Positions 568 through 28,683 of a stretch of 64,000 bases of DNA are shown piece by piece. The stretch covers positions 1 to 64,000 of the forward strand of contig MCGO01000014.1 in NCBI GenBank assembly GCA_002104985.1, in the 5' to 3' direction. Position 1 is the stretch's first letter, and the number at the start of each line of letters is the position of its first letter. Made by a program: the position numbers and the translations under genes. This stretch comes from Rhizoclosmatium globosum. Its lineage: Eukaryota; Chytridiomycota; Chytridiomycetes; Chytridiales; Chytriomycetaceae. Under the pieces are notes generated by a model. That model did no database searches. It was given only the letters and a program-made list of their open reading frames with translations, and was not told the DNA's origin.

Positions 568-1965
568 ATGGGTGAGTGTTTCAAACTAGGACTGCCCCTG
601 AGACTGCCACCTGGAACAGCAAAGTGTGATTGCATTGACATGATTCGGAACATGCACAAAGGCCCTGTGTCCCTGATCTCCCTCATAGCCTGTACCCGCA
701 AACTGTGCTCTAAACACACCCAATCCCCCTTTTAGCCGACGAACAACTTCCAGGAAACATCCAAAACATCCTCGACCAAGAGTCTCTCAGATGGATCTTT
801 GTCGGAGGAAAGGGTGGGTGTCGGAAAGACCACTAACTCGTACGTTGCCTTTGACGTTTTTCGCTTCCCTCTGCTTCAGTCCAATTTACTCATTCCTTCC
901 GGGGCAAAACAGATGTTCCCTTGCCGTTCAACTTGCCGCTGTCAGAGAGAAGGTTCTCTGATCTCAACGGACCCGGCCCACAACTTGTCTGGTTAGTTTC
1001 ACTTCGAGTTTGGTTGTGGGGATACTAGCGAATCTGAAACAACACTACAGATGCCTTCTGCCAAAGTTACCAAGGTTCCTATGCTCGTGAACGGATTCGA
1101 CAACTTGTACGCCATGGAAATCGACCCAAACAGCAGCATGCAGGAAATGTTGGACAGCAACTGTAAGTAGCGAAGAAGGAAGGAGAACCCGAAAGAAAGC
1201 TGACCACGTCATATCCAACAACACAGCCGAAGACTCAGCCATGCAAACCGGTCTCCAAGAGCTCGCCTTCGCCATCCCAGGTGTCGACGAAGCCATGGGT
1301 TTCGCAGAAGTCATGAAACTCGTCAAATCCCTCGACTACTCAACCGTCGTCTTTGACACAGCCCCAACAGGCCACACCCTCCGTTTCCTCTCCTTCCCTT
1401 CCGTCCTCGACAAGGCCCTCGGAAAATTGAGTGAACTCGGTGGACGCTTTGGACCCATGATTTCTCAAATGTCCAGCTTGATGGGTGCCCAAGGTGCGAG
1501 CCCGGAAGACATGTTTGAAAAGTTGAATAGCATGAGAAGTGTGATTCAGGAGGTCAACGCGCAGTTCCAGGACCCGGATAAGACTACATTCATTTGTGTC
1601 TGTATTTCAGAGTTCTTGTCTTTGTATGAGACGGAGAGAATGATTCAGGATTTGGCTGGATTCAATATTGATGTGCACAATATTATTGTGAACCAGTTGT
1701 TGTACCCAAAGAAGGGTGAGAATCTTTTTAATTTATTAGATGAGGTTCTGCATATGCTAAATTGTTCCTACCGATAGAATCTAACTGTGACCAATGTCTC
1801 GTGCGTGCCAAGATGCAAGCGAAATACTTGAACCAAATCCACGACTTGTACGAAGACTTCCACATCATCAAGCTCCCACTCTTGACCCAGGAAGTTCGTG
1901 GTGTAGACAAAATCAAGGAATTCTCCAAGATGCTCGTTGAGGAGTACGTTCCACCAAAGCAGTAA
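568..1965 (+). CDS. GET3: GET3/ArsA-type ATPase, tail-anchored protein targeting factor
   Basis: Cytosolic homodimeric ATPase that hands tail-anchored membrane proteins to the ER GET receptor. Exon 1 is only ATG-G, followed by a GTGAGT donor. Later exons encode [19 protein letters not shown], the P-loop GGKGGVGKTT, the switch I segment [12 protein letters not shown], then [22 protein letters not shown] and NQLLYP. The zinc-binding CxxC is NCDQC, and the protein ends [11 protein letters not shown]...YVPPKQ, as in fungal GET3. Single-base indels break the frame at about 815 (one extra G inside the P-loop), about 955 (VLLIS) and twice near 1055-1065 (GQKFTKV). The rest is intact, so I read these as sequence errors. 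It is convergent with the NADH dehydrogenase gene, about 210 bp apart. Confidence 0.93.
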
Positions 1966-2177
1966 ATGTTTGTTAAAAAAAAGCTCCGTATATATATTCG
2001 TTGATTTGGGATGATGTCTTTTTCTGTACTGATACGTTCATAAAAAATTGCTTCAAACGCCTTTTTTTATTAATTGCTCTCCATTAGAGGTTCTAGAACC
2101 GATGCGTAATAAGCTAACAAACAAAACTTGGGGAGGAAACTTGGAGGAAGAATGCGATTTATGGGATTCGCCTTGGT

Positions 2178-4028
2178 TTACTCGCGGGAGATGTCACGGC
2201 CGAAAGTCTTGGCCTTCAACCAATCGAAACCAACGAGAACTCTGTTTCTCAGTGAGAACAGGTTGCTCATGTAAGCAGAGCGCCAGAACAGGTAGGTCAT
2301 GGCTCCACTCAAGTGAATACCAAAAGGAAGGTCGGCGATAGCCTTATCGCCACCAACGTATGCAAGAGATCCTTGGTGATTGTAACTACAAAAATGGAAA
2401 TTTCTTAGAATCTCGTTCCAAACGAATAGAAAGGTCCCACTTACACAAATGGTTGAAGCTTTTGCACAAATTCTTCAGGTTTGTTTCCCTCTTCAACAAA
2501 CTTGCTCTTTTCCCGCTTCAAAGCGTACAATTGAGCAAATTGTTCTGCCAAGTATGCTCCTTGTCGAGAAGCAACTTGAGCTGTAGGAGCCCACTTTGTT
2601 GCTGAACAGTCACCCAATGCATAGATTGATCCCTTAGATCCCTTCACCGCGAGCCAATCATCCACAACAAGACCACGTCTTTGGTTCTGCAAGTCCTTTG
2701 GCAATTTCGAAATCAAATCCGAGACAAGTGGTCTCGCAGTATTTCCAGTTGCCCAAACAAGAAGTCCAAACGGAATCGTCTCCAACTCCTTATCCTTATT
2801 CAACACCAAAATATCTTTTTGATGCACCTCCTTCACCATCGTATTGTTCAAAATCTCCACCTTGTTTTCCGCAAAAGTGCGTTCCGTATATTGAATGAGG
2901 TCTTTCGGGAACATTCCGAGTACATGAGGTGTCGCCTCAACAAGAGTGATTTTAAACTTTCCAGCAATGTCCGGGTACCAGGTTTGGATATCGTCGTTCA
3001 AGAAATCGTGCAGTTCTGCAGCATATTCTACTCCAGTGGGTCCTCCACCCACAACAACCATGTGCAAGAGACGGTTGATTTCTGATTCGGGTTGGCCTGG
3101 GAACGTAGCGGATTCGAGGCAGTCGAGAAGTTGGGTTCTGATTCGACGTGCATCCCTGTTTTCTCTCGTTAGCAATACGTAAAAAACATGGAACGATAAG
3201 AAAATCGTACCAAGCTTCCTTCAAGAAACAGGCTGGTGATGGAAGAAATGGTGATTAGCATTGAATTATCTGTCCGATAAGGGGATATATCACCATTCTC
3301 TTTGACACCAGGGATTCCAAATGTGGCATTCTCTGCACCAACACCAACAACAAGATAATCGTACTTGATTTCAGATTTCGAAACAGCGCCCTGGATCTCA
3401 CTGCTGTCCTCGACAGTGATCACCTTCTTTGTAGGATCGATATTTGTGCAGTTTCCTTCGACATACAAGATCTCCCTCCTCTTGAATCTAGTCAAGAAAC
3501 GAATAGGCTGCATAATTGAGCGCAACTCGACAGTTCCAACGGTACTACTTGGGAGGAGTGGTGTAAAGAGGAAATAGGCGCGTGGAGAAACGAGGACGAC
3601 GTTGTAGTTTTCAGTGTCGAGATCTTTGAGGAGCGAGGTTGATCCCCATCCAGTTCCAAGGATTGCGATTGTTTCTTTGCTGTGGTCCCACTCGAACTGC
3701 GGCAGTGGATGGCGCGATTCGTAGACGGTCCAGGCAAACACGGCGAGACCCACGGCGGCCGACCCTGTTTGACAGTACGAGGTTAGGTTGGTTGAGAAGG
3801 AGCGGGTGTGGGTTGCAAGGCTGGGGGTCGTGGGTGATAAGCATCTCGAGGGAGACACAAAGGATTGACAGCTCCGATTTGTAAGAAACTACACTCACCC
3901 TTGAGCACCCGTTTAGTCCATTTGAATCGAGGTGCCTTTGGAGTAGATGTAGCTACGGTACTGCTGAACCGCGACGTTGGGACTTTGGCGGTGGCGAAAC
4001 GAACTGACGCTCGAGATAATGCGAGCAT
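2178..4028 (-). CDS. NDE1: Alternative (type II) NADH:ubiquinone oxidoreductase, mitochondrial
   Basis: Single-subunit, non-proton-pumping NADH dehydrogenase of the inner mitochondrial membrane. Five exons read cleanly. The N-terminus (MLALSRASVRFATAKV) is rich in Arg, Ser and Ala, as in a mitochondrial presequence. A hydrophobic segment (GSAAVGLAVFAWTVY) precedes the FAD-binding Rossmann motif ILGTGWGS. A 25-nt mini-exon encodes CFLKEAW, and the next exon opens DARRIRTQLLDC. The second nucleotide-binding motif is VVVGGGPTGVEYAAEL, followed by WATGN and ALGDCSA. The last exon (YNHQGSLAYVGGDKAI to GRDISRE) is typical of the family. Whether it faces the matrix (NDI) or the intermembrane space (NDE) cannot be decided here; the hydrophobic anchor after the presequence favours external. 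No frameshifts are seen. Confidence 0.93.
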
Positions 4029-4351
4029 GGCCTTCGGAATTTTTGTAGGGTAACTTTTTGGTCAGACCATTCCTTCTGGCTTGCCCACGTGCTCGATTTC
4101 AGTTAGTAAGTCGATAACGATAAGAGAAGGTTTCATCATTACTGAGCAGACAGCTTTTGGGATATAAAAAGGATGCGAAGAGAGACAAAACTCAAGAACT
4201 TTGGGCTTGGGAAGATTTGAATTATTAATGATTTATAATACCCGAAAAAGAGAGTATTGTGCAATAGTAGACAGATAAAAAGAATTGTCAGTTTCTTTCC
4301 AACCTTCAAGTCTTAGCTACACAAACCAAGGCCAACTGAACATACCGAAAA
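4029..4351. promoter_or_regulatory. Divergent promoter region between NDE-like and androglobin-like genes
   Basis: A 323-bp gap separates two divergent start codons. It holds a TATAAAAA at 4163-4170, about 180 bp upstream of the androglobin-like ATG, which implies either a long 5' leader or no role for the box. Nothing else is recognisable. Confidence 0.35.
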
Positions 4352-7300
4352 ATGAAGAAGGTCGTTGATAGCGCAAAAGGTGGCGCTGGTCTGAAATCTG
4401 GAAGCCTTAAGAAGACAGCACAAGGAGCATCAACAATTTTGGCAAATGCAGCCGCCGCTGCAGCATCCTCTATGATCGGTGCTCAAATTGACGATCCCGT
4501 CGAGGCTCCAGTTATCATATTCCCGGAATGGAGTGACGCGGAAATAGCGGCGGAGAAGTGGTCGACAAAACACACGTTTGAGGACCCAGAAGGGTTTGCT
4601 CCTCTACCAAAATCACTTCGCGTTCTACTACCACCAAACTCGAATCAAAATGGATATGCCCAGAAGAGGTGAAGTTTATTTCGTGCCCTGTCCCTTGATT
4701 CTGACGAAACCCCAGACATATTGATATTCTTGGTGACGGATCAACCCCTATTGGAGTCGCTGCACCCACTTTAGTTGAAGACTCGTTCTGTATTGTTCCA
4801 ATCGCTACTCCAGTAGCAACTCCATCTGCTGCAAACGCGGCGCACACAGCAAGCGCGAGAGCAAAATTACAATCTGGAGATGAAAACGAAGTCACCGCCG
4901 ACGGGACTGTAGTCGAGAATAATTCTTTGGAGTATGAACACCCAGTCGCGGCGTCCACTTCCAACACGAACTTGCTTGCAGCAGCTCCAGATATTATGTT
5001 CTCTGGAATCGACAGCCAAGGACAAAACGCATCCTCTATAAATCTCGTAGAAGATGTGAATAACACCGTGTTGGCCCAAGACACGGAAAAGGAAAACTTG
5101 GCTGCGACATCAAGATTATTTCAGCAAAATCGTCATCTGATTGGGTCTGAATTAATCCGTCAAATCCTCGCAACATTTCACCTTCTATATGATCAATCAA
5201 AGACTTCTCGTGCAAACAACCTCCCTGACGAGTTCACACCGTGGGACAACTTGTACCCGAAAGGAAAAGACGGTTTACCCATGTATAACCCATCTGGTCG
5301 ATACGCAGTGAAGCTCTTTTGGCTTGGCTGTTGGCGAAAAGTGATTGTGGATGACAGAATCCCGGTCGACGAACAAGGACGTCCACTCGTGATCTTCAGT
5401 CCAACTCCACAAGAAATCTGGCCAGTTTTGATCACGAAAGCTCTGTTGAAAGTCGCTACAGCAAGTTATAAAGACTACGACGCCAGTTCAACAAGTTTCA
5501 ATGGGTGTATGGGAAATGGAACCCGTGCCTCATTCGAACATGGAGATTTTGATGTCTTGCATGCCTTAAAAGGATGGGTTCCGGAGCGAATTGCCGTTTG
5601 GGATCGCGAAGAACGTGTGAATCGACTGTGGGGAGTGCTGAATGACTTGAACCTCAAGAATTTGATGAGCTTTCCATCGGCACCAAAAAACGTGATTTGG
5701 GGAGCTCCCGTCGCTCCTGTAGCTGCGGCACCTGCTCCACCTGCCAAAGGAGGTGCAGCTGCTGCAGCAGCCGCGGCCGCCGCTGCTGCTCCATCAACGG
5801 CCCAGGTCACAACAGCTGCGGACAAAGGAGTGCCTAACACCCCTGGCGGAGGAAAGAACGGACCTTACACTATTGCTCTGGCGTTACGGTTTGGCGATGT
5901 GAGTCGATGGTAGTTCAACATAGTACTAACGAGGAAATTGCAAAGGATGCGTCAGAGAAGCTTGATCTCATGACAATCAGCTATTTATTTCGGATTTGTG
6001 ATGTGAAAGAAGTCACCATTGAAGAAGAGGAGGATGGTACGCCAATCACTACCGAGAAGGTGTTGGTAATGAAGCATTACTTCTCTCTTGGGTGACTATA
6101 TTACTATTCAAGTTAAACATATTTTATTGAGACTTCTATGTATAACAGACGAAACAAAAAGACAATCCCACCAGGAACAAAACCTGGCGATGAGGTTTCA
6201 AATTCTGACGATTGCACGGAATTTACGATATCATTCTCTGAATTTGCGAAATCGTATAGGTGAGGGTGCCTTTTGTTGTCCTGGTTAAAGTTCTTCAACC
6301 TTTGATTCATCCATAGGCATCTTATGATTTATCACAATCAAGGCTCGTTTAAAACGCTTCGAACTATTCAGAATATTGTAGATCCGGCAAAGCCTGTCGA
6401 TGCGACTCGTATTCCACCACTTTTATGTATGTTGCTCCTTTCCTTGCCAATCAAAACGCTAATGTTTTTTATCAGATCTTCCTGACGTGGCCAAGGACTG
6501 TCATATATTTTGCTCGCTTTCGACATTTGGCCGAGTCAAAATGGATGGTTTGCCTCAGATTTCGTCGTTGATGATAGAGCAATACGATTGGAAGTTTGAC
6601 CCAGAATCTTCCAAAGTTCCTCAAAAGCCAGTTGTTCGACTGAGCACAAATTCAACTCTTGCCACATATTTCAATTTTCCGGCAGGGTAATATAAGGGTT
6701 CCGCTTACGAAATCATACTGACGGATTAATTCCAAAAGCAACGTAGCGTTTCGATTTGTTGTTGATTGCCCAACATCTTACAGCCTTTCTTTCTGGTCTC
6801 GAGACGAGTTTTTGTTGGAGGATGAGGCAAAATATGTATCGGAACGACTTGGTCTCTGTGTACGTGACATCGACGAAACATTTCCTGCTCAACAAGCAAA
6901 CTCGTGGTTTATGTTGTTCAAGTATGTGTTTCTATGAAGTCAGTTGTATTTAAAAGGGACGTAGGAATCAGTTACGCTTCACTGAGCCAGTCTACCTCGC
7001 CGCTTCATTGTACGTTCCAGATAGTCTTCAAGCGTCCACCTGTCTCCGGATGTTCGACAACGACACAGGCAAAGAGTTACCAAACATATTCCATAATTTA
7101 AAATCTCGCCATTTCCATCCAAACACAGTGAGTTAAATTATGTAAGGACGACATGTCGTTAAACGCCTGTTAGAATGGTTTCACACTTCTCGCGGACAGT
7201 CGAACTGTTGCAGCACGGCCTGCTGGAAAATGGAAACTCAGACTTATTTCTGACCCGACTCCTGTCTATGCTCCCGAAAAGCCACCAACGGAGCTATCGG

Positions 7301-9733
7301 TCAAGCCCATCACACAAGACTTTGAAGATGGATATGTTCCAAATAAGCACAATATCTTATTCAGGTACCTTGATCATTTTATCAAGTTAGAAATCGATTT
7401 TAATGACGGCTTCATCGTAGATCTGTGCTGAAAGTGAAAGACGGTCCTGAAAGTATGGCTTCTTTCCAACTCACGTTTTCCCTTTCGCAAGCAGTGCTGA
7501 AGCTTCAATTATTCGATAATGATGTTGAAATTGCATCAGCTTCGGGGAAAGGAGTTGCAACCATTCACGCAGTGAATCTGGTCCAAGTTATTGAAGAAAC
7601 AATCAGCCCTGCCACAGCACCAGCGGGTGGTAAAGGAGACAAGAAAGATAAAGAAAGGGAAGCCAAAGAAAAGGAAGAAAAGGAGCGTCTCGCAAAGGAA
7701 TCCGCTGCTGCTGTTGCTGCAGCATTAGGGGTAAGCCCCTTTGCTTTGGGAATTCATCTAAATGATCTGCATTATAGGAGAAGCCTCTCCCAAAACATCG
7801 TTATGTCCTCCAAGCAACTATCCAGCCCCTTGACCAAATGAAACCAACATCGCCAAACGTTCAAGCCGCTGTATCAGATGCAAACCGACCCACATCCAGA
7901 GGTGGAAAGCCCGCTCCATCTTCAGCATCTCCATCGAAAGCCAAAAAGAAACAATCTGCTGGACCCGGAGCTGTTGAAGCGACAAGTCCAGCTGGTCCAG
8001 CCGAACCGATATGGATGTGGAAACTGCGTGTTATATCGACAGATACAACGTCGTTAATCGTAGTAAAGGATACCGAGAAAGAGGATCGATATAAGATGAT
8101 CAAAGATTCGTGGGAGGCGAATCAACCAGGCCGTGCTGCAAAGGCTCGCGAATCAAGAGACCAATATTTGAGGTTGACTGAGTCCGGAACCATTAAACCT
8201 GTCGTTATCATGATGACCCCACCTGCTGATGAAAATCCTCCGCCAGTAATTGGAAAGCCTAAAGAAATTGTTGTTACAGCAGTGGGAAGTGACATTGTCT
8301 TCAAGCCTTGGACAATCCTCAAAGAGAACATGAATGGCGGAAGACGGCTTGATACTATACCCGTCCAACCAAGCGTTTTCGGGACAAATGGAGAAAAGGT
8401 GCAGTATGAAATCGCTAAACCTACAACAACTTCAACAGAAGGATCTTTGGGTCGTGCAAACAGTTTACTCGATGAAAATCTGGATTTGACCTCGTTGACT
8501 GTTCCGAGCAGTAAACCCGCCACCGCAGCCAGTGACACTCTGACCAAATTCAACTCAAAACCCAATTTAGTCTCTTCTCCTCTAACTGGAGCACCATTGA
8601 GCGTTGAGGCTCGATCGCCTGCTCTTGAGGGGCAGCAGCCGTTTTCAATTGAAGTTGCGCCAGCTACACCACAACCTCATAGCAATGAGAATTTCCAAAA
8701 TCAATCCGTGGATAACTTATTGAACGAGATCACAGATTCTCCCCAAAAAGTAACCAACATTTCATTTATGAGTGACTCCATCATGACAATACCAGAGGAA
8801 GACGATAACGACACAGGAGAATGCCCAGCGACTGTCAACGAGTTACAAGCATATCTTAAAGGCAAACTGTCTTATACTCGCCGCGCAACTCTGTTCTCAA
8901 TGGGCGCACATCTATCACAAAAGCCTCCTCTTCCGGGAGATGCATTTGAGTTTAAAATGCCAAGTGTGATTCTTCCAGGAGGATATAAAAAAAGCTTGGA
9001 TGCGAAACGAACATCACTAGTCGAAGCTCGAACGTCAGTCACTGGAAGACAATCGCAGGCACCAAACCGAGAGTCAAAAGCCTATGGTCGAAAGAGTTTG
9101 ATGAAGCACATTCAACGACACTCAAGAGACCTCACCATGTTATCGACTGAATCCATATCACAATCCAACCAGTTGGCGTCAGTCGAATCCGTTGCAGAAG
9201 AGGCTGATTTTGTGAGAGAATCTGAGTATGAGGAAGGTCGCGTCTCCGTCTTCCCTGATTCACGAAAGCAAAGTTTTGCCACAACATGGGTTCCGCCACT
9301 ACCATCGAAATTAAAAGGCCGAGTCTTGACTGAAGCAGAAAAGGAAGAGCGGGCACAAAAACGACTTGAGAGAATGCAGGAGCACGTCAAATTCCATGAT
9401 GAAGTGCTAAAAATGCGGTTGGCGGAAAAAGAATATCGCATGCGAGTTAAGCATTACATTCAAGAGAAAATGGAAGAGCGACTCCAGGATATTGATGGTG
9501 AAAAGGGAGAAGACCAGATTAGACGTGAGATGTATCGAGCAAGAGTAGCGAAAGAGTAAGTGGAATCAATTGCTGCATTTGACAGCTTATTAAATGGTAA
9601 TAGGTACGAAGATGCGTCAAAGTTGAAGTTGCAGCAGGAAATGCAACGGGCAGCGGAGTTAGCGGCGTTGGAAGGTGCAGCCGAGGAGCAAGCAAAGGAC
9701 GCTGCCGCTGCGAAAAAGAAAGGGAAAAAGTGA
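4352..9733 (+). CDS. ADGB: Androglobin-like protein (calpain-like domain plus C-terminal coiled coil)
   Basis: About 1,600 residues in some 12 exons, with consistent GT-AG introns and no frameshift. The N-terminal FPEWSDAEIAAEKW and FEDPEG are androglobin signatures. The calpain-like core follows: LIGSELIRQIL, KLFWLGCWRKVIVDD.IP, IWPVLITKALLK, and FDVLHALKGWVPE. I see no calpain QG.CWF catalytic-Cys motif, so protease activity is doubtful. Beta-rich segments follow (LSTFGRVKM, VAFRFVVDCPTSYSLSFWS, VPNKHNILFR). A poly-Ala tract (12 Ala) lies near 5758-5790. The last third holds WMWKLRVISTDT, KEDRYKMIKDSWE and a charged coiled coil ending KKKGKK. In animals a permuted globin with an IQ motif lies mid-protein; I find no equivalent. 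Family members are linked to cilia and sperm flagella, which fits a zoosporic fungus. Confidence 0.85.
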
Positions 9734-23047: not shown

Positions 23048-24232
23048 TCAACGTAATACAACAGGAACCATTTCCCCTACTTCCCCATCGTCAAAACCCT
23101 CTTCCACTAACATCCGAAACAGTTTCGTATCTTTTTCGATGCCAGGAGGTATTATTGGGTCAAGCAGGTTTCCTTTGAGGAAGAGTTCAGCGAGGCGAAT
23201 GAGGTTTGTAAATTCTATGGGCACAGTTCCCGTCAGTTTGTTCGAGCTAAGCTGCAATACAACAAGATTCTTGAGCTTTCCAATTTCGCGAGGAATAAGT
23301 CCGAGGAAACGATTCCTCCCTAAATACAAGTCTTCCAACTGAGATAGGGACCCTAATTGCCTCGGCAAAGCACCATAGATATCATTTTCCTGCAGGAACA
23401 ACGCCTTCAGGTTTCGTAATTTTCCCAACGACGGCGGTAAGTTGCCTGAAAGATGGTTTTTCGAGAGGTCCATTTCAACAAGTGAAGCAAGATTCCCAAA
23501 GCTGGAGGGCACTTCACCCGTCAATTTGTTTCTTCCCAGATATATTTGCTCAAGTTGTGTCAAGTTGCCTAATTCAGACGGAATAGACCCAGATAGCAGG
23601 TTCGACGAGAGACACAAGGTCCTAAGACTTTCAAGTGAGCCCAACTCGGCCGGTATCGGACCAAACAACTCATTAGATTCCAGCCGCAGTGTTTCTAATT
23701 TCTTCATATTCGCCATCGCAGCAGGAATTGACCCAGATAACTTATTGAAACTCAACACCAAGTTCTTCAGATTCACGAGTCCCCCAATCTCCCCAGGTAT
23801 ATCCCCACTTAAATTACAGTTATTCGCATGTAACTGAACCAAATTCGTAAGCCGCCCCAACGGCGCCGGGATCCAGTTAATGACAAAGTCCACTTTACTC
23901 CAATGCACTTCAACCAATTTCCCAAACCGGTGCTGGATGAAGGATTCCTGGTAGTGTGGCGGCAGGGCGAACCATACCCTGTCCAGTTCGGAGGTTGTAG
24001 ACGGTGTGTCGAAGGAGACTCGGGCTGGGGTGTCGGATATGTGTTTTGAGAAGATCAGGGGTGGGAAGGTTGGGGACATGAGGAGTCTGTTGAAGCGATG
24101 GGATACTCGACGGAAGGGGAGGATGTCTTGGGGATGGATCCATGAGAGGATGGAAGCCAAGACGGGGTCGGGCAGATCCTCCATTTGTGTTGAGAGATTT
24201 GCGAGTGCCTTTGGTTTGACAAGGGGCGCCAT
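23048..24232 (-). CDS. F-box-like protein with plant-type leucine-rich repeats, copy 2
   Basis: 394 residues, intronless, starting MAPLVKPKALANLSTQ. F-box-like segment about 19-55 (LPDPVLASILSWIHPQDILP, then FRRVSHRFNRLL). The linker DRVWFALPPHYQESFIQHRF ends EVHWSKVDF. About ten LRRs of 24 residues follow, for example LVNLKNLVLSFNKLSGSIPA and LSQLEDLYLGRNRFLGLIPR. This is the IP-type repeat (LxGxIPxxLGxLxxL) of plant receptor kinases, not the RNI/CC type normal for F-box proteins. There is no signal peptide or membrane segment, so it is probably cytosolic or nuclear. The most regular of the five copies. Confidence 0.85.
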   Translation of the reverse strand: MAPLVKPKALANLSTQMEDLPDPVLASILSWIHPQDILPFRRVSHRFNRLLMSPTFPPLIFSKHISDTPARVSFDTPSTTSELDRVWFALPPHYQESFIQHRFGKLVEVHWSKVDFVINWIPAPLGRLTNLVQLHANNCNLSGDIPGEIGGLVNLKNLVLSFNKLSGSIPAAMANMKKLETLRLESNELFGPIPAELGSLESLRTLCLSSNLLSGSIPSELGNLTQLEQIYLGRNKLTGEVPSSFGNLASLVEMDLSKNHLSGNLPPSLGKLRNLKALFLQENDIYGALPRQLGSLSQLEDLYLGRNRFLGLIPREIGKLKNLVVLQLSSNKLTGTVPIEFTNLIRLAELFLKGNLLDPIIPPGIEKDTKLFRMLVEEGFDDGEVGEMVPVVLR

Positions 24233-24443
24233 TTCCTTCCCACACTACCCAATACCTACGTTCACTGTAATAAAAGAAAGAAGAATATAATCTCTCTACT
24301 TTAGCTTGATCGCGTCTTAAAGTCCTGAGTCTAAGCAGGTATGATCGCCTGGAGGCTTTGAGTCGTTGACAATCCCTACCTAGTACTTAGAGAACGATAT
24401 AATCATAAACTGATAAATAAATAAAGCACAAGAAAGAAAAGCC

Positions 24444-27225
24444 ATGAAAAACGGAATCCTTGTCCTTAGCACATCTGCCATCAACACACATTCATTCGCC
24501 GCCCAACTGACAGGCCACCCAATCGCACCAGACGAATCGGTAGTTCCATGGACGCTTCAAACAAAGTACTACACTGCCAGTGTACGGCTCTGGCTGGACA
24601 CCCTGGACGACACAAGCGACGTTACAGCTGTTGTTGAAAGCCTGGGCGACGCTGTGGATGGACTCGTACTTCTCTTTGACTCTGAGAAACCAGATACATT
24701 CGAGGCGGTGAAGCCGTGGAAGGAGTTTGTGTCGGATGCTGCTGTGAGTTGTTCACTTGCACACTCAGTATGGCAACTAATGTGCATCACTTAGCCTGGA
24801 GTTGCGCTCTGCTTCGATGTATCAACTGCTTCAACGCCTTCTACTGTAGCTGATGGTGTTCTTGATGAGGCTGCTGCATGGTGTGCCGATAATGGACTGG
24901 AACTTGTGTGTGCAGAAGAGGTAGGTCTCTGATGTCGAGTGCTCTGAAAAATCTTTTTCGGGAAAAATCTTTTACACCCTCCCAAAAGATTTTTAAAAGA
25001 TTTTTTGCTATGAAAGAGCTGCCATTCCTTCGAAGTAAGTATTCCGCTGCTGCTTAATGCCGGGAGGCTGTCAGCTGTTCGCTGCCCGCTCTGCAGTTTG
25101 CTGTAGACGTCAATGAAACACAGAAATACGTGAAAAAGTGCATATTTACAAACTTTCGCTAAGAAGGTTTTGTTCCCACGACTCCTGCGCGAAAGTTGGA
25201 CGCGTTGTCATTTGGCCTATCACCCCTTGAACGTCATGATCCCCACTATAATATAACCGTCCCGGCCGTCAACGCATGCTTTGAATCTAACACACTGGCT
25301 CAAAAAATTGAAATAGAACATTGATTGTTTGATGGCTGGTATGGGGACCCATGTCAGCCCAACAATGAACAACCAATGCAAGATTTTCAACCCGGGAAAC
25401 GTGAAGCTCAAATACAATCGGAAGATTTACAATTGAATGAGCAACTCCCTAGCGTTGTATGCCCTTTCGTTCAGCGATGTTATACGTCTGTTAAACCTTT
25501 GTCATAGAATCTCGAACGCGACCCAACTGCTTTCTAACACTCAACAACTTACGCTTATTGGATATCGACGTATATCCGTCAATCAGGATTCAAAGTCTTT
25601 GGCTCATCAAACTCAATTTCTTCAAATGTCTTCATTCTACAATATATACACGAGGACAAGAAATCTGGATCAAGCGTTTCTAAGAGACCTGGACTCTGTA
25701 TTGCCTTGGACGCGATAAAGACCGATAGCTCAATCAACGGCTTAATTGTTTTTAAAGTCGATCGACTTTCGCGAAACACATCAGAAACCCAGGATATTGT
25801 TTCCGCAATTCTTGCAGCAGGAAAATATTTTATTTCGGCTTCTGAAGTCGAGATTGTCTTTGGTCCAAGCAGAGATATTTGGGTTGACGTGAGTTAGATA
25901 ATTTGACACGACTGCAAACCAAACCAAATTGCTTAGGCTGGAAAGCGGAACAGTCTCCTAGCTAAGGCATTTTTCGCTGAAATGGAGAGAGCAAATGCTT
26001 CAATGAATGGCGTCCTCCATATGCATATGCTCCGTTTGATGCACAGACCACTCTCCAATTTAGCGGCTTATGGAACCAGATTCGTTGCAACATATGCAGA
26101 TTCTAAGCTTCCACGATTTCATTATATACTAAATCAATTACCTATGAACTATGAATCGGTCAATGTTGTAGCGTTTTACCCTGAAGAAGTCCAAGCCCTT
26201 CGAGCTATTGAATATATTCGCGACCAATTGGATAAGAACGTAAATGCAACACCTTCAATGATCTTTGATCACGTTAATGGCGTCCTCAATGTATTTAAAG
26301 ACTGTCGTCCTCTTGCATTCCCTCGTCCACGGAAGAAACTGATCAACAACTTCTATCATAATGTAAAAAGCTTCATCAAGCAACAAGAACTCTTTCAAGA
26401 ATATCATTTAATTGACGAAAAGATTCAACGTTTGAATGTTGTTGGGTCGTAAGCCTCCGTTGGCCACACTTTCTTTTATTTGAGACATGCGAAAAGGCTC
26501 CGAACTATAGTAAACTCTATCATCTCTTGCGCCAAAAAAGGCCAGCACTCGAGAGGTTTTGGGGTACATTCAGCACTCGATATCAAAAAAAAATCGCAGA
26601 AGATGGGGAGGATTCAATTCAGAGAGTGATTCAAGCTTTGGAAGCAAATGCATGGGATGGACTTGTTATGAATGATGCGAAAGAAAAGAATGTGGGAGGG
26701 ATGGCTGGTACACTTGACGACGATACACTTCCGTCTGTGACTGTGGCAGCGAATTGGAAAGCGGCTGCTGCAGCCGAGTTTGGGGATGATGATGACGACT
26801 ATTTGGATCTTAACCAGGTGCTGGAAAGGGAAGAAGGAACGCTCCAATCAATGTTAGCAGAAATGAATGTGAATGACTTGGACGATGATGAGTTTGGCGA
26901 GTTTATGGCGAGCACTGGAAGTCAAATTAATGCTGGAGCTAAGAAATCCGAGTTTGACTTTGATATTCCTGAGTTGGATGAATTCGGTAGGTTTCTTCTT
27001 TGCTTCCTTGTTGATCTCATGTCTTGTCTTGAAGATCCCACAAACGCGTCCCAGGAAACTAAAGACTTACGAGCGGCTCTATTCGGTGACGTGGACGATG
27101 ACGACTTTTTCGAAAAGGCAATAGGCCAAATCAAGAACCTGCGAGACTCAGCAAACTCAATGAGCGACGACAAAAGGCGAGATATGGCGCGGAAGCTTGC
27201 TATGGCTTTATTAAGCGACGAATAA
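24444..27225 (+). CDS. AAGAB: Alpha/gamma-adaptin-binding protein p34 (AAGAB/IRC6), interrupted by an insertion
   Basis: Chaperone that stabilises AP-1/AP-2 subunits during adaptor assembly. The N-terminal pseudo-GTPase part (MKNGILVLSTSAINTHSF, then DGLVLLFDSEKPDTF, then GVALCFDVSTAS) ends LELVCAE at 24919. The C-terminal part resumes at 26596 with DGEDSIQRVIQALEANAWDG. A further intron at about 26986-27034 leads to the family tail FEKAIGQIKNLRD and RRDMARKLAMALL. Between the halves sits a 1.68-kb element. Removing it with one copy of the 8-bp duplication rejoins the frame exactly. As an intron, the only good donor (GTAGGT at 24921) and the CAG at 26597-26599 give a frameshift. This allele is therefore probably broken unless a weak donor is used. 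Confidence 0.82.
24912..24919 (+). repeat. Target site duplication, left copy
   Basis: GCAGAAGA, identical to 26596-26603. Confidence 0.75.
24930..24943 (+). repeat. Terminal inverted repeat, left
   Basis: TGATGTCGAGTGCT, starting 10 bp inside the element end. Confidence 0.75.
24945..25010 (+). repeat. Subterminal A+T hairpin
   Basis: GAAAAATCTTTT repeats twice and is followed by the reverse form AAAAGATTTTT and AAAAGATTTTTT. It can fold as a hairpin around ACACCCTCCC. It may be a subterminal protein-binding site; that is inference. Confidence 0.6.
25437..26452 (+). CDS. Serine recombinase (resolvase/invertase catalytic domain)
   Basis: The catalytic domain begins IGYRRISVNQDSKSLAHQTQ, matching the Y.R.S..DQ...Q motif with the nucleophilic Ser in RRIS. 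It continues YIHEDKKSGSSVSKRPGL, then GLIVFKVDRLSRNTSET, ISASE, and the E helix FFAEMERANASMNG. An intron with a GTGAGT donor (25888) and CTTAG acceptor joins IWVD to AGKRNSLL. The C-terminal 130 residues (FYPEEVQALRAIEYIRDQLD, IFDHVNGVLNVF) look like a worn recombinase DNA-binding domain. The frame slips once near 25615, between QTQFLQ and FILQYIHED. The DRLSRN motif differs from the DRLARFG of IS607-type enzymes. 46 residues precede the catalytic domain from the first ATG; no clear HTH in them. Confidence 0.82.
26572..26585 (-). repeat. Terminal inverted repeat, right
   Basis: AGCACTCGATATCA; reverse complement TGATATCGAGTGCT. A second AGCACTCGA occurs at 26543-26551 just inside it. Confidence 0.75.
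26596..26603 (+). repeat. Target site duplication, right copy
   Basis: GCAGAAGA, identical to 24912-24919. Confidence 0.75.
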
Positions 27226-27296: not shown

Positions 27297-28674
27297 TTAT
27301 TCAACCCGGCGTCTCCAAGAACGCTTCTTGGAATCCATCATAATGCGATCATACAAGGATACAATTTTCCGTAATTGGGAAGGGACCGGGCGATCCATGT
27401 AGTTGTGTGTGATTTGCAGAGCACACAAACGCATGGGACCCATTTCCTCCGGAATTCTTCCCGTGAGTTCGTTGTTTTGAAGGTAAATCCAGCGTAAATT
27501 AATGGCGCCGCTGAGTTCCCATGGAATTGAACCAGATAAATAGTTGTCTGCGAGATTCAATCTTCTCAAGTTGGGGGACATTCCGAAACCACGCGGGATT
27601 TCACCTCTCAGCTTGTTTCCACTTAAATTGATGATCTCCACTGAAACCAAGTTTGCTACTTGTCTTGGGATCTCGCCTGACAGTCTATTGTTCTGTGGTA
27701 ATACAATAAGCACCCCACTTGCACTTCATTTCAATGCTTACCTTCAAATCTAGTGTGGCGAGCCTTGTCCAGTTTCCCACTGCATCTCCAGGAATGCTGC
27801 CACAAAGCTCATTATCCCCAACAGAAAAACATTCCAAATATCGACAAGACCCCAATTCCAAAGGAATCTCTCCCCCAATCTTGTTTTCAGAAATTCGCAA
27901 CTCTCTCAGCTCCTTCAACTGCCCAAACTCTTTTGGGATACCTCCCGTCAACATGTTCCCGCTCAAATTCATGCTCCGCAACATACTCAACAACCCCAGC
28001 TCCCCAGGAATCTCCCCACTCAACTGATTCTTTCCCAAATAAAGCGACGTCAATCCAGCAAGCGATCCAACCTCCTTCGGGATTCTTCCCACAAGCCGAT
28101 TACATCCCAAACTCAAGTACCGACACGCGCCACCAATCGCCTCAATTTCAACCGGAATCTCACCCGTCAAGTCCATAAACGTAAGCTCTAGTTTCTGCAA
28201 CCCCTTCAAAACCCCAATCGCGCGCGGGATCTTTGGGTCCTTTCCTACACCGCGTGCATAGGCCCAATCGATTTCCGAGACGTGGGAGAGGTATGACTGG
28301 GCGTAGACTAGTTGATACACGTCCGGAAGTTGGAACCATAGGCGGTCGAATACGTCTGGGTAATATGTTTGGAGAGTTTGTGTGTCACGGTTTATGTGCG
28401 TTGATAGGTTTGCTAGGGCAAAGTGACGTGTTTGGAGGCATGTGTTGAACGTTTTGCAGACACGTCTGAGGGGAAGGAGTTGTTGCGGAGGGATGTGGCG
28501 GAAAAGTTGGACAAAGAGGTCTCTTGGAAGAGAAAGAAATGTTGTGTTGGAGATGTATTGAGTTGAAGCTGTTGAATGAGTTGGGAGAATTGGAATGGTC
28601 AGCGAGCTGTCAAATTTAACGCAAATAGTTAGATACAGTGTGTGGGATAAGGACGATCGAATTAATGCATTCAT
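27297..28674 (-). CDS. F-box-like protein with plant-type leucine-rich repeats, copy 3
   Basis: Two exons (28674-27742 and 27692-27297) joined across a 49-nt intron with GTAAGC donor and CACAG acceptor, giving WTRLATLDLK-NNRLSGEIPR in frame. The true ATG is at MNALIRSSLSHTLYL. F-box-like segment LSLPRDLFVQLFRHIPPQQL, then LRRVCKTFNTCL. The conserved linker is DRLWFQLPDVYQLVYAQSYL, then SEIDWAYAR. LRRs include LAGLTSLYLGKNQLSGEIPG and LRRLNLADNYLSGSIPWELS. The C-terminus is very basic (DSKKRSWRRRVE). It is the only copy with an intron inside the LRR region. Confidence 0.83.
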
Positions 28675-28683
28675 GATACTCAA

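Follow-up and report, generated by a model that had tools for sequence, protein, structure and literature searches.

The window analysed here is a stretch of 64,000 nucleotides (contig MCGO01000014.1, positions 1 to 64,000, hereafter contig C46) from the genome of the saprobic chytrid Rhizoclosmatium globosum, which was searched as 56.9 Mb in 420 contigs, and our subject is an element carrying a serine recombinase gene that interrupts a host gene in this window. The host gene spans 24444-27225 on the plus strand and matched Adaptin_binding (PF10199; E = 7.5e-8, 33.5 bits against a cut-off of 32), as expected of AAGAB. The insert is flanked by two exact copies of GCAGAAGA (24912-24919 and 26596-26603), and since the bases adjoining them are unlike at either side, the duplicated target measures exactly 8 bp. 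Between these copies lie 1,676 bp (24920-26595, plus strand), and excising the insert together with one repeat (1,684 nt) joins the two reading frames of the host gene. The second haplotype (C135:569225-574008) reads GTGTGTGTAGAAGATGGGG at the site, with a single target copy (GTAGAAGA), one C/T difference and no insert. It is 95-96% identical to the window across 22.5-29 kb, and the window at 46.0-52.1 kb is collinear with C135:544233-550397 (97% match), which supports allelism. Because the empty allele has one target copy, the window insert represents a genuine insertion, carried by one haplotype of the two. When both strands of the window were scanned for exact 8-mer duplications around GG[TG]A...AAAATC, spaced 0.8-9 kb, this insert alone was returned.

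The left outer end GGTAGGTCTC (24920-24929, plus strand) is followed from nt 11 of the element by the inverted repeat TGATGTCGAGTGCT (24930-24943, plus strand), and on the right the inverted repeat TGATATCGAGTGCT (26572-26585, minus strand) is followed by an outer end that reads GATTTTTTTT inward (26586-26595, minus strand). Each terminal inverted repeat (TIR) thus starts 10 nt inside its end, and the two are complementary at 13 of 14 positions; none of 20,000 random same-length pairs within the insert was as good. The insert with its 8-bp flanks, the recessed repeats and the restored AAGAB frame had all been reported in a preliminary description of this DNA and were confirmed. The left end also forms a good splice donor (GAG/GTAGGT, window 24921), and splicing from it to an acceptor at 26622 would leave the host frame intact, as do 20 donor-acceptor pairs in the stretch tested. 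The end of a related element on contig C151 (GGTATG) is similar to this donor-like left end.

The insert contains a serine recombinase gene on the plus strand (PF00239, E = 7.2e-10). The start of its catalytic domain, with the serine motif GYRRISVNQ (25560-25640), is out of frame with the rest. The remaining catalytic domain with DRLSRN, recognised by profile match and alignment, follows at 25643-25888, and a probable 48-nt intron of phase 0, GTGAGT...TTAG (25889-25936), separates it from the E-R helix and the C-terminal part (25937-26449), which aligns with chytrid recombinases and is open to the stop at 26450-26452. The relatives have a splice near the homologous place, and so do two public models, P0003 (the recombinase of a related element on contig C135) and P0004 (from Rhizoclosmatium sp. 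JEL0117). The window gene is frame-broken between the serine motif and the rest, with its catalytic residues lying in two frames. When the genome was searched with the DNA of the insert, only the insert itself and one 142-bp match on contig C69 (80%) were obtained.

Related elements and their ends

PF00239 was found at 10 places in the genome: in two tandem units on C151, on C135, C17 and C388, in the window, and in the allele-like pairs C143/C105 and C279/C118. The C151 units are identical and 6,470 bp each, the C135 element is 6,436 bp, and both kinds are complete; they span locus borders and were placed by alignment. In both, the left end is followed by a seven-exon gene for a putative transposase (1,051 aa in C151 and 1,048 aa in C135), about 1.3 kb of non-coding DNA, a recombinase gene (approximately 370 aa) in the same direction, and the right end. 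Our own seven-exon model of the C151 transposase equals the public BCR33DRAFT_730087, being identical across all 1,051 residues. Three transposase units were present in the genome (E up to 0.01), each with a recombinase downstream. The copy on C17 is a 1,955-bp derivative with 8 nt of left end, followed by sequence 99.6% identical to the C135 element from nt 4490; it has lost the left inverted repeat and is a deletion product of the C135 element.

The left outer ten nucleotides of the C151 and C135 elements are GGTATGAGTG and GGGAGTAGTG, so that the window, C151 and C135 elements begin with GGTA, GGTA and GGGA, respectively. The right ends are alike in the three, with GATTTTTTT read inward and AAAAATC at the right terminus, and the right outer ten of C151 and C135 both read GATTTTTTTG inward. 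The inverted repeat starts from nt 11 in all three, and the recess seen in the window thus recurs in its relatives. The repeats match at 14 of 18 positions in C135 (0 of 20,000 random pairs as good) and at 11 of 18 in C151 (46 of 20,000). The exact 8-bp flanking repeats differ from site to site, being AGCAAAAT for C151, GGAATTGG for C135 and GAATTTTT for C17, and an exact 8-bp duplication was present at all six insertions with both ends placed, which are the window insert, the C151 pair, C135, C17 and the elements L060 and L061 described below. Other copies with different ends or no 8-bp duplications had been named in the preliminary description as refuting; the opposite was seen, the relatives being flanked by 8-bp duplications and sharing the arrangement of the ends. 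The end-and-duplication scan of 10 loci and the window returned C17 and the window insert only.

The remaining copies are less regular. On C151 the two units lie head to tail (L038 2768-9237, and 9242 to L039 5711) with a CAAA spacer (9238-9241), which equals the middle of their outer duplication AGCAAAAT; this arrangement may have arisen by insertion of a dimer or by re-insertion with trimming, or may be an assembly artefact. The C388 recombinase copy is located between 67-bp inverted repeats (L040 3945-4011 and 5441-5507) that are 92.5% alike, and it has a typical right end, while a left end was not found there. The C279/C118 copies look like fragments. A second intron-bearing lineage of serine recombinases is found on C105 (L043 1602-2704 and 4340-5524) with an allele on C143, and is 93-99% identical per exon to P0004. 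By eye, an open reading frame upstream of it ends in a CKRC...H...C motif resembling the C-terminus of the C151 transposase. The 14-bp TIR was also tried as a marker of copies. It gave 43 matches with up to one mismatch against 13 for the reversed control; of the 20 examined as loci, 2 were the element itself and 18 were without its ends, and these 18 were taken as chance.

The putative transposase and the serine recombinase

The domain DUF6729 (PF20499), weakly matched by the C151 transposase (P0001), was found at 8 further genome places, and none of the 8 is on a contig with a PF00239 place. Two of them were read, L060 on C68 (element at 782-5832) and L061 on C301 (819-5884), and these elements of 5,051 and 5,066 bp are 99.5% identical and occupy different sites. 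Like the recombinase-bearing elements, they have a DUF6729-type transposase, ends starting with GG (GGCTC...GAGCC) and exact 8-bp duplications (AAACTTTC and GAAATTTC), whereas their TIR lies at the very ends (19 of 22 positions matching), their contigs have no PF00239 match, and they seem to carry other extra domains; by eye, OTU-like and RNase D/WRN-like exonuclease stretches lie between the second acidic motif of their transposase and the remaining core. The L060 transposase aligned with residues 150-426 of the family transposase (hhalign probability 93.8%, E = 1.7e-7). Ordered acidic motifs could be recognised by eye in both proteins, FDVHKK/SIDHYY and then FLDNCC/YTDKCC (positions taken in P0001), followed by VFLDRAH/VKLDSVH and by a glutamate in GTSSLEGMFR/SDVESFH. 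Since the same 8-bp duplication is made by these recombinase-free elements, the likely mover is the DUF6729 protein, which presumably acts as a DDE transposase.

The recombinase of the family was examined using P0003, which is 95% identical to our own model and retains one intron removed there. PF00239 is the sole domain above cut-off in P0003, with a long C-terminal part behind the catalytic domain; PF07508 and the zinc ribbon PF13408 were not found in it by Pfam profile search. Across all five aligned relatives (four chytrid and one environmental), no change was seen in the catalytic residues of Y-x-R-x-S, RLSR and E-R. The DRLSRN motif had been put forward in the preliminary description as separating this recombinase from IS607 enzymes, a role that did not hold, RLSR being invariant and the preceding D nearly so among 43 aligned serine recombinases. 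The structure predicted for P0003 has a mean predicted local distance difference test score (pLDDT) of 82.6 (43 alignment rows), and its best Foldseek matches are whole serine integrases over about 270 columns, the close match in this model being limited to the catalytic part.

A protein search with the family profile gave 151 proteins at E up to 0.01 among 7,996 candidates scored, and 120 of them are listed. Among the matches listed are proteins of R. globosum, R. hyalinum (97 aa), Rhizoclosmatium sp. JEL0117 and Obelidium mucronatum (two) and the environmental protein P0008, and the remaining ones, where an organism is named, are recombinases from bacteria or archaea; many of those nearest in sequence carry PF07508. 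Relatives thus occur in three Rhizoclosmatium species and in Obelidium. A tree was built of 28 rows, namely 26 of the 120 listed proteins, the C151 recombinase and the pieces from the window. In it the rows from chytrids and the environment were separated from the 21 others with support of 100/100, with long branches flagged, and the chytrid rows alone grouped at 79/93. No viral relatives were obtained when IMG/VR was searched with P0008, and the family profile matched two IMG/VR loci at 29-30% and two bacterial-genome loci at 26-29%.

The ratio of nonsynonymous to synonymous substitution rates (dN/dS) was 0.079 for the transposase (C151/C135, with dS saturated), and for the recombinase it was 0.154 (C151/C135, dS 1.4) and 0.152 (C151/C388, dS 0.15). 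Judged by these ratios of 0.08 and 0.15, both genes are apparently under selection, and the recombinase gives the impression of a functional component of the family and not of debris. Furthermore, a partial transposase of R. hyalinum (P0002) matches that of C135 in all but 2 of 809 residues, and the 97-aa recombinase piece of the same species (P0007) is identical to the C388 translation. The identical C151 units and these near-identical pieces may be due to recent mobility or transfer, or to a common origin only a very short time ago.

Movement of the element and rival explanations

The explanation we prefer, and regard as quite probable, is that the window insert belongs to a chytrid family of TIR elements with a DUF6729-type transposase and a serine recombinase, that it has decayed and lacks the transposase, that it was moved in trans, and that the recombinase is accessory. 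A DUF6729-type transposase supplied by another copy would cut and join the window ends over an 8-bp stagger and so produce the duplication, and the recombinase would act on the element afterwards without being the inserter. Its most likely task would be the one performed by Tn3 resolvase, namely the resolution of dimers or cointegrates formed by two copies. The C151 and C135 elements share two conserved patches between their genes (102 bp at 76%, E = 1e-16; 53 bp at 81%, E = 7e-8), and these lie where a res site would be expected, res being located between the two genes of Tn3. Dyad symmetry is suggestive of such a site at most. In single sequences, dyads as good occurred in 106 of 500 and 37 of 500 shuffles for the first patch and in 73 of 200 and 12 of 200 for the second, and for the whole intergenic regions in 154 of 200 and 196 of 200; a dyad in the 5' part of the window element was matched by 2 of 200 shuffles and corresponds to a repeated AAAAATCTTTT motif. 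A bolder version, in which the family is a eukaryotic counterpart of Tn3 whose DDE transposon copies itself and whose own serine recombinase resolves the dimers or cointegrates at the intergenic site, is possible but doubtful in our estimation. If it is true, eukaryotes have replicative transposition with dedicated resolution.

Several observations weigh against the preferred explanation. No trace of the transposase was found in the window insert by search with P0001 at E up to 1, and membership of the insert in the family is therefore judged from its ends, its duplication and its recombinase. At the DNA level it resembles the C135 element over 47 bp, and its recombinase is only about 31% identical to those of the relatives. 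The copies on C388, C279/C118, C105/C143 and C69 had no recognisable pair of ends and were left uncounted. The DUF6729 match of P0001 (E = 1.9e-4, 21.5 bits) is below the Pfam cut-off of 27, partial P0002 had no DUF6729 match, and P0001 gave nothing significant against PDB sequences. The D/D/E residues of the putative transposase were assigned by eye, and its AlphaFold model has a pLDDT of 28.4 (four alignment rows), so that an RNase H/DDE fold is not supported by it. The synonymous sites compared between C151 and C135 are near or at saturation (dS 1.4 and 3.1). For the recombinase, the first four Foldseek matches covered the query with template-modelling scores of 0.28-0.39 and root-mean-square deviations of 9-12, and the likeness past the catalytic domain is loose. 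As to resolution, the best joint dyad in a conserved patch was matched by 20 of 500 column shuffles, which is weak, and the head-to-tail dimer on C151, if real, is a product that a working resolvase should remove.

The serine recombinase could itself be the transposase of a new element class with the 8-bp duplication as its product, the preliminary description having offered a new class of element mobilised in an unfamiliar way, and recombinase-only copies do exist, as the window insert, C17 and C388 have a recombinase without a transposase match. Yet C17 derives from the C135 element by deletion, and elements moved by serine recombinases are described as being without TIRs and duplications (PMC3627910; for IS607, PMC6188088). 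The 8-bp duplications of L060 and L061 mean that no duplication-making recombinase is needed. With the PF20499 and PF00239 places on separate contigs in 8 of 8 cases also counting against it, we give this explanation scarcely any credence. The same separation would fit a recombinase that is a neutral, decaying passenger picked up by a DUF6729 transposon, and so would the broken window copy and the fragment-like C279/C118 copies. That the dN/dS is nonetheless close to 0.15 in both comparisons, that the catalytic residues are invariant, and that a recombinase stands beside each of the three transposase units and has relatives across three Rhizoclosmatium species and Obelidium make the passenger explanation unlikely.

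An 8-bp target duplication is also made by hAT elements, so that the duplication by itself would suit a hAT or a KDZ/Zisupton element. In a study of Cryptococcus, KDZ1 makes 8-bp duplications like that of the window insert, KDZ2 and KDZ3 make duplications of 4-8 bp, and the TIRs measure 139-241 bp (PMC12810828), compared with 14-18 bp set 10 nt inside the ends here. No hAT or KDZ domain was found in the relatives' proteins P0001 and P0002 at E up to 10, and we take an origin in either superfamily to be quite improbable. The preliminary description had offered a hAT-like non-autonomous element with a captured recombinase, which is not far from the picture given by the relatives. Nothing hAT-like was seen, the kin encoding a putative transposase of DUF6729 type, and this copy did not itself acquire the recombinase, which is apparently a selected gene of the autonomous family. 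There is very little chance that the insert is an ordinary host-gene intron, which the preliminary description had named as a refuting alternative, or a spliced-out introner: the frame-keeping donor and acceptor would allow it, but the other haplotype is without the insert, and the insert has TIRs and a gene of its own. Splicing of the window insert is in any case compatible with its being a transposon.

Relation to known systems and neighbouring features

Eukaryotic TIR transposons are generally taken to be moved by DDE transposases, and eukaryotic serine recombinases are known mainly from IS607-type elements. With the Tn3 family the elements described here share the TIRs, a transposase gene with an adjoining serine recombinase gene (in the C151 and C135 units, the window copy having the recombinase only) and conserved non-coding patches at the position of res. 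They differ in being eukaryotic and intron-bearing, in duplications of 8 bp and not the 5 bp of Tn3, and in having a DUF6729 protein instead of TnpA, no TnpA domain being found in P0001 or P0002 by Pfam profile search. Their recombinase belongs to the lineage of large integrases and is not a small resolvase, and dimer resolution would be a function shared with Tn3. Phage large serine integrases such as Bxb1 and TP901-1 have the same catalytic domain and a looser likeness in the domain that follows, whereas the chytrid protein is shorter, is encoded with introns, is without recognised PF07508 and PF13408 domains and resides in a TIR transposon.

IS607/Fanzor2 elements likewise place a serine recombinase within a eukaryotic mobile element. 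IS607 has no TIR and no duplication (PMC6188088), and Bao and Jurka (2013; PMC3627910) describe the same absence for the elements that serine recombinases move, whereas here a TIR and an 8-bp duplication are present and the catalytic domain comes first, followed by the long C-terminal part; the helix-turn-helix preceding the catalytic domain in IS607 was not seen in P0003. The earlier view that a serine recombinase unlike that of IS607 is carried by an element with TIRs and an 8-bp target duplication was upheld. KolobokP composite transposons also combine a eukaryotic DDE transposon with a second DNA-processing enzyme, but the partner is a His-Me finger homing endonuclease and the superfamily is another one (PMC9587614). 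The literature searched, with subscription journals lying largely outside the search, yielded no account of a serine recombinase carried by a eukaryotic TIR transposon, and the term DUF6729 was not found in that literature. These results are best read as a family of TIR DNA transposons that bring along their own recombinase, one of the large-integrase lineage, and the family by the features tested is not IS607, hAT or KDZ.

Such a family joins two types of enzyme in one element, both apparently under selection and with recently moved copies. It would make it possible to ask whether a eukaryotic transposon that looks like a cut-and-paste element passes through a cointegrate or dimer needing resolution, and it offers relatives of large serine recombinases that have introns and are adapted to eukaryotes. 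In addition, it gives DUF6729 proteins an anatomy of an 8-bp duplication, ends starting with GG and a recessed TIR.

In the surroundings of the element, the assembled sequence of the empty C135 allele shows a 1-nt deletion in the same host gene that is unrelated to the insert. Collinearity of the window with C135 ends at about 52,125 and resumes on C324, which may be a haplotype rearrangement or an assembly break. The host gene is flanked by leucine-rich-repeat-like genes, recognised by eye, at 23048-24244 and 27297-28683 on the minus strand.

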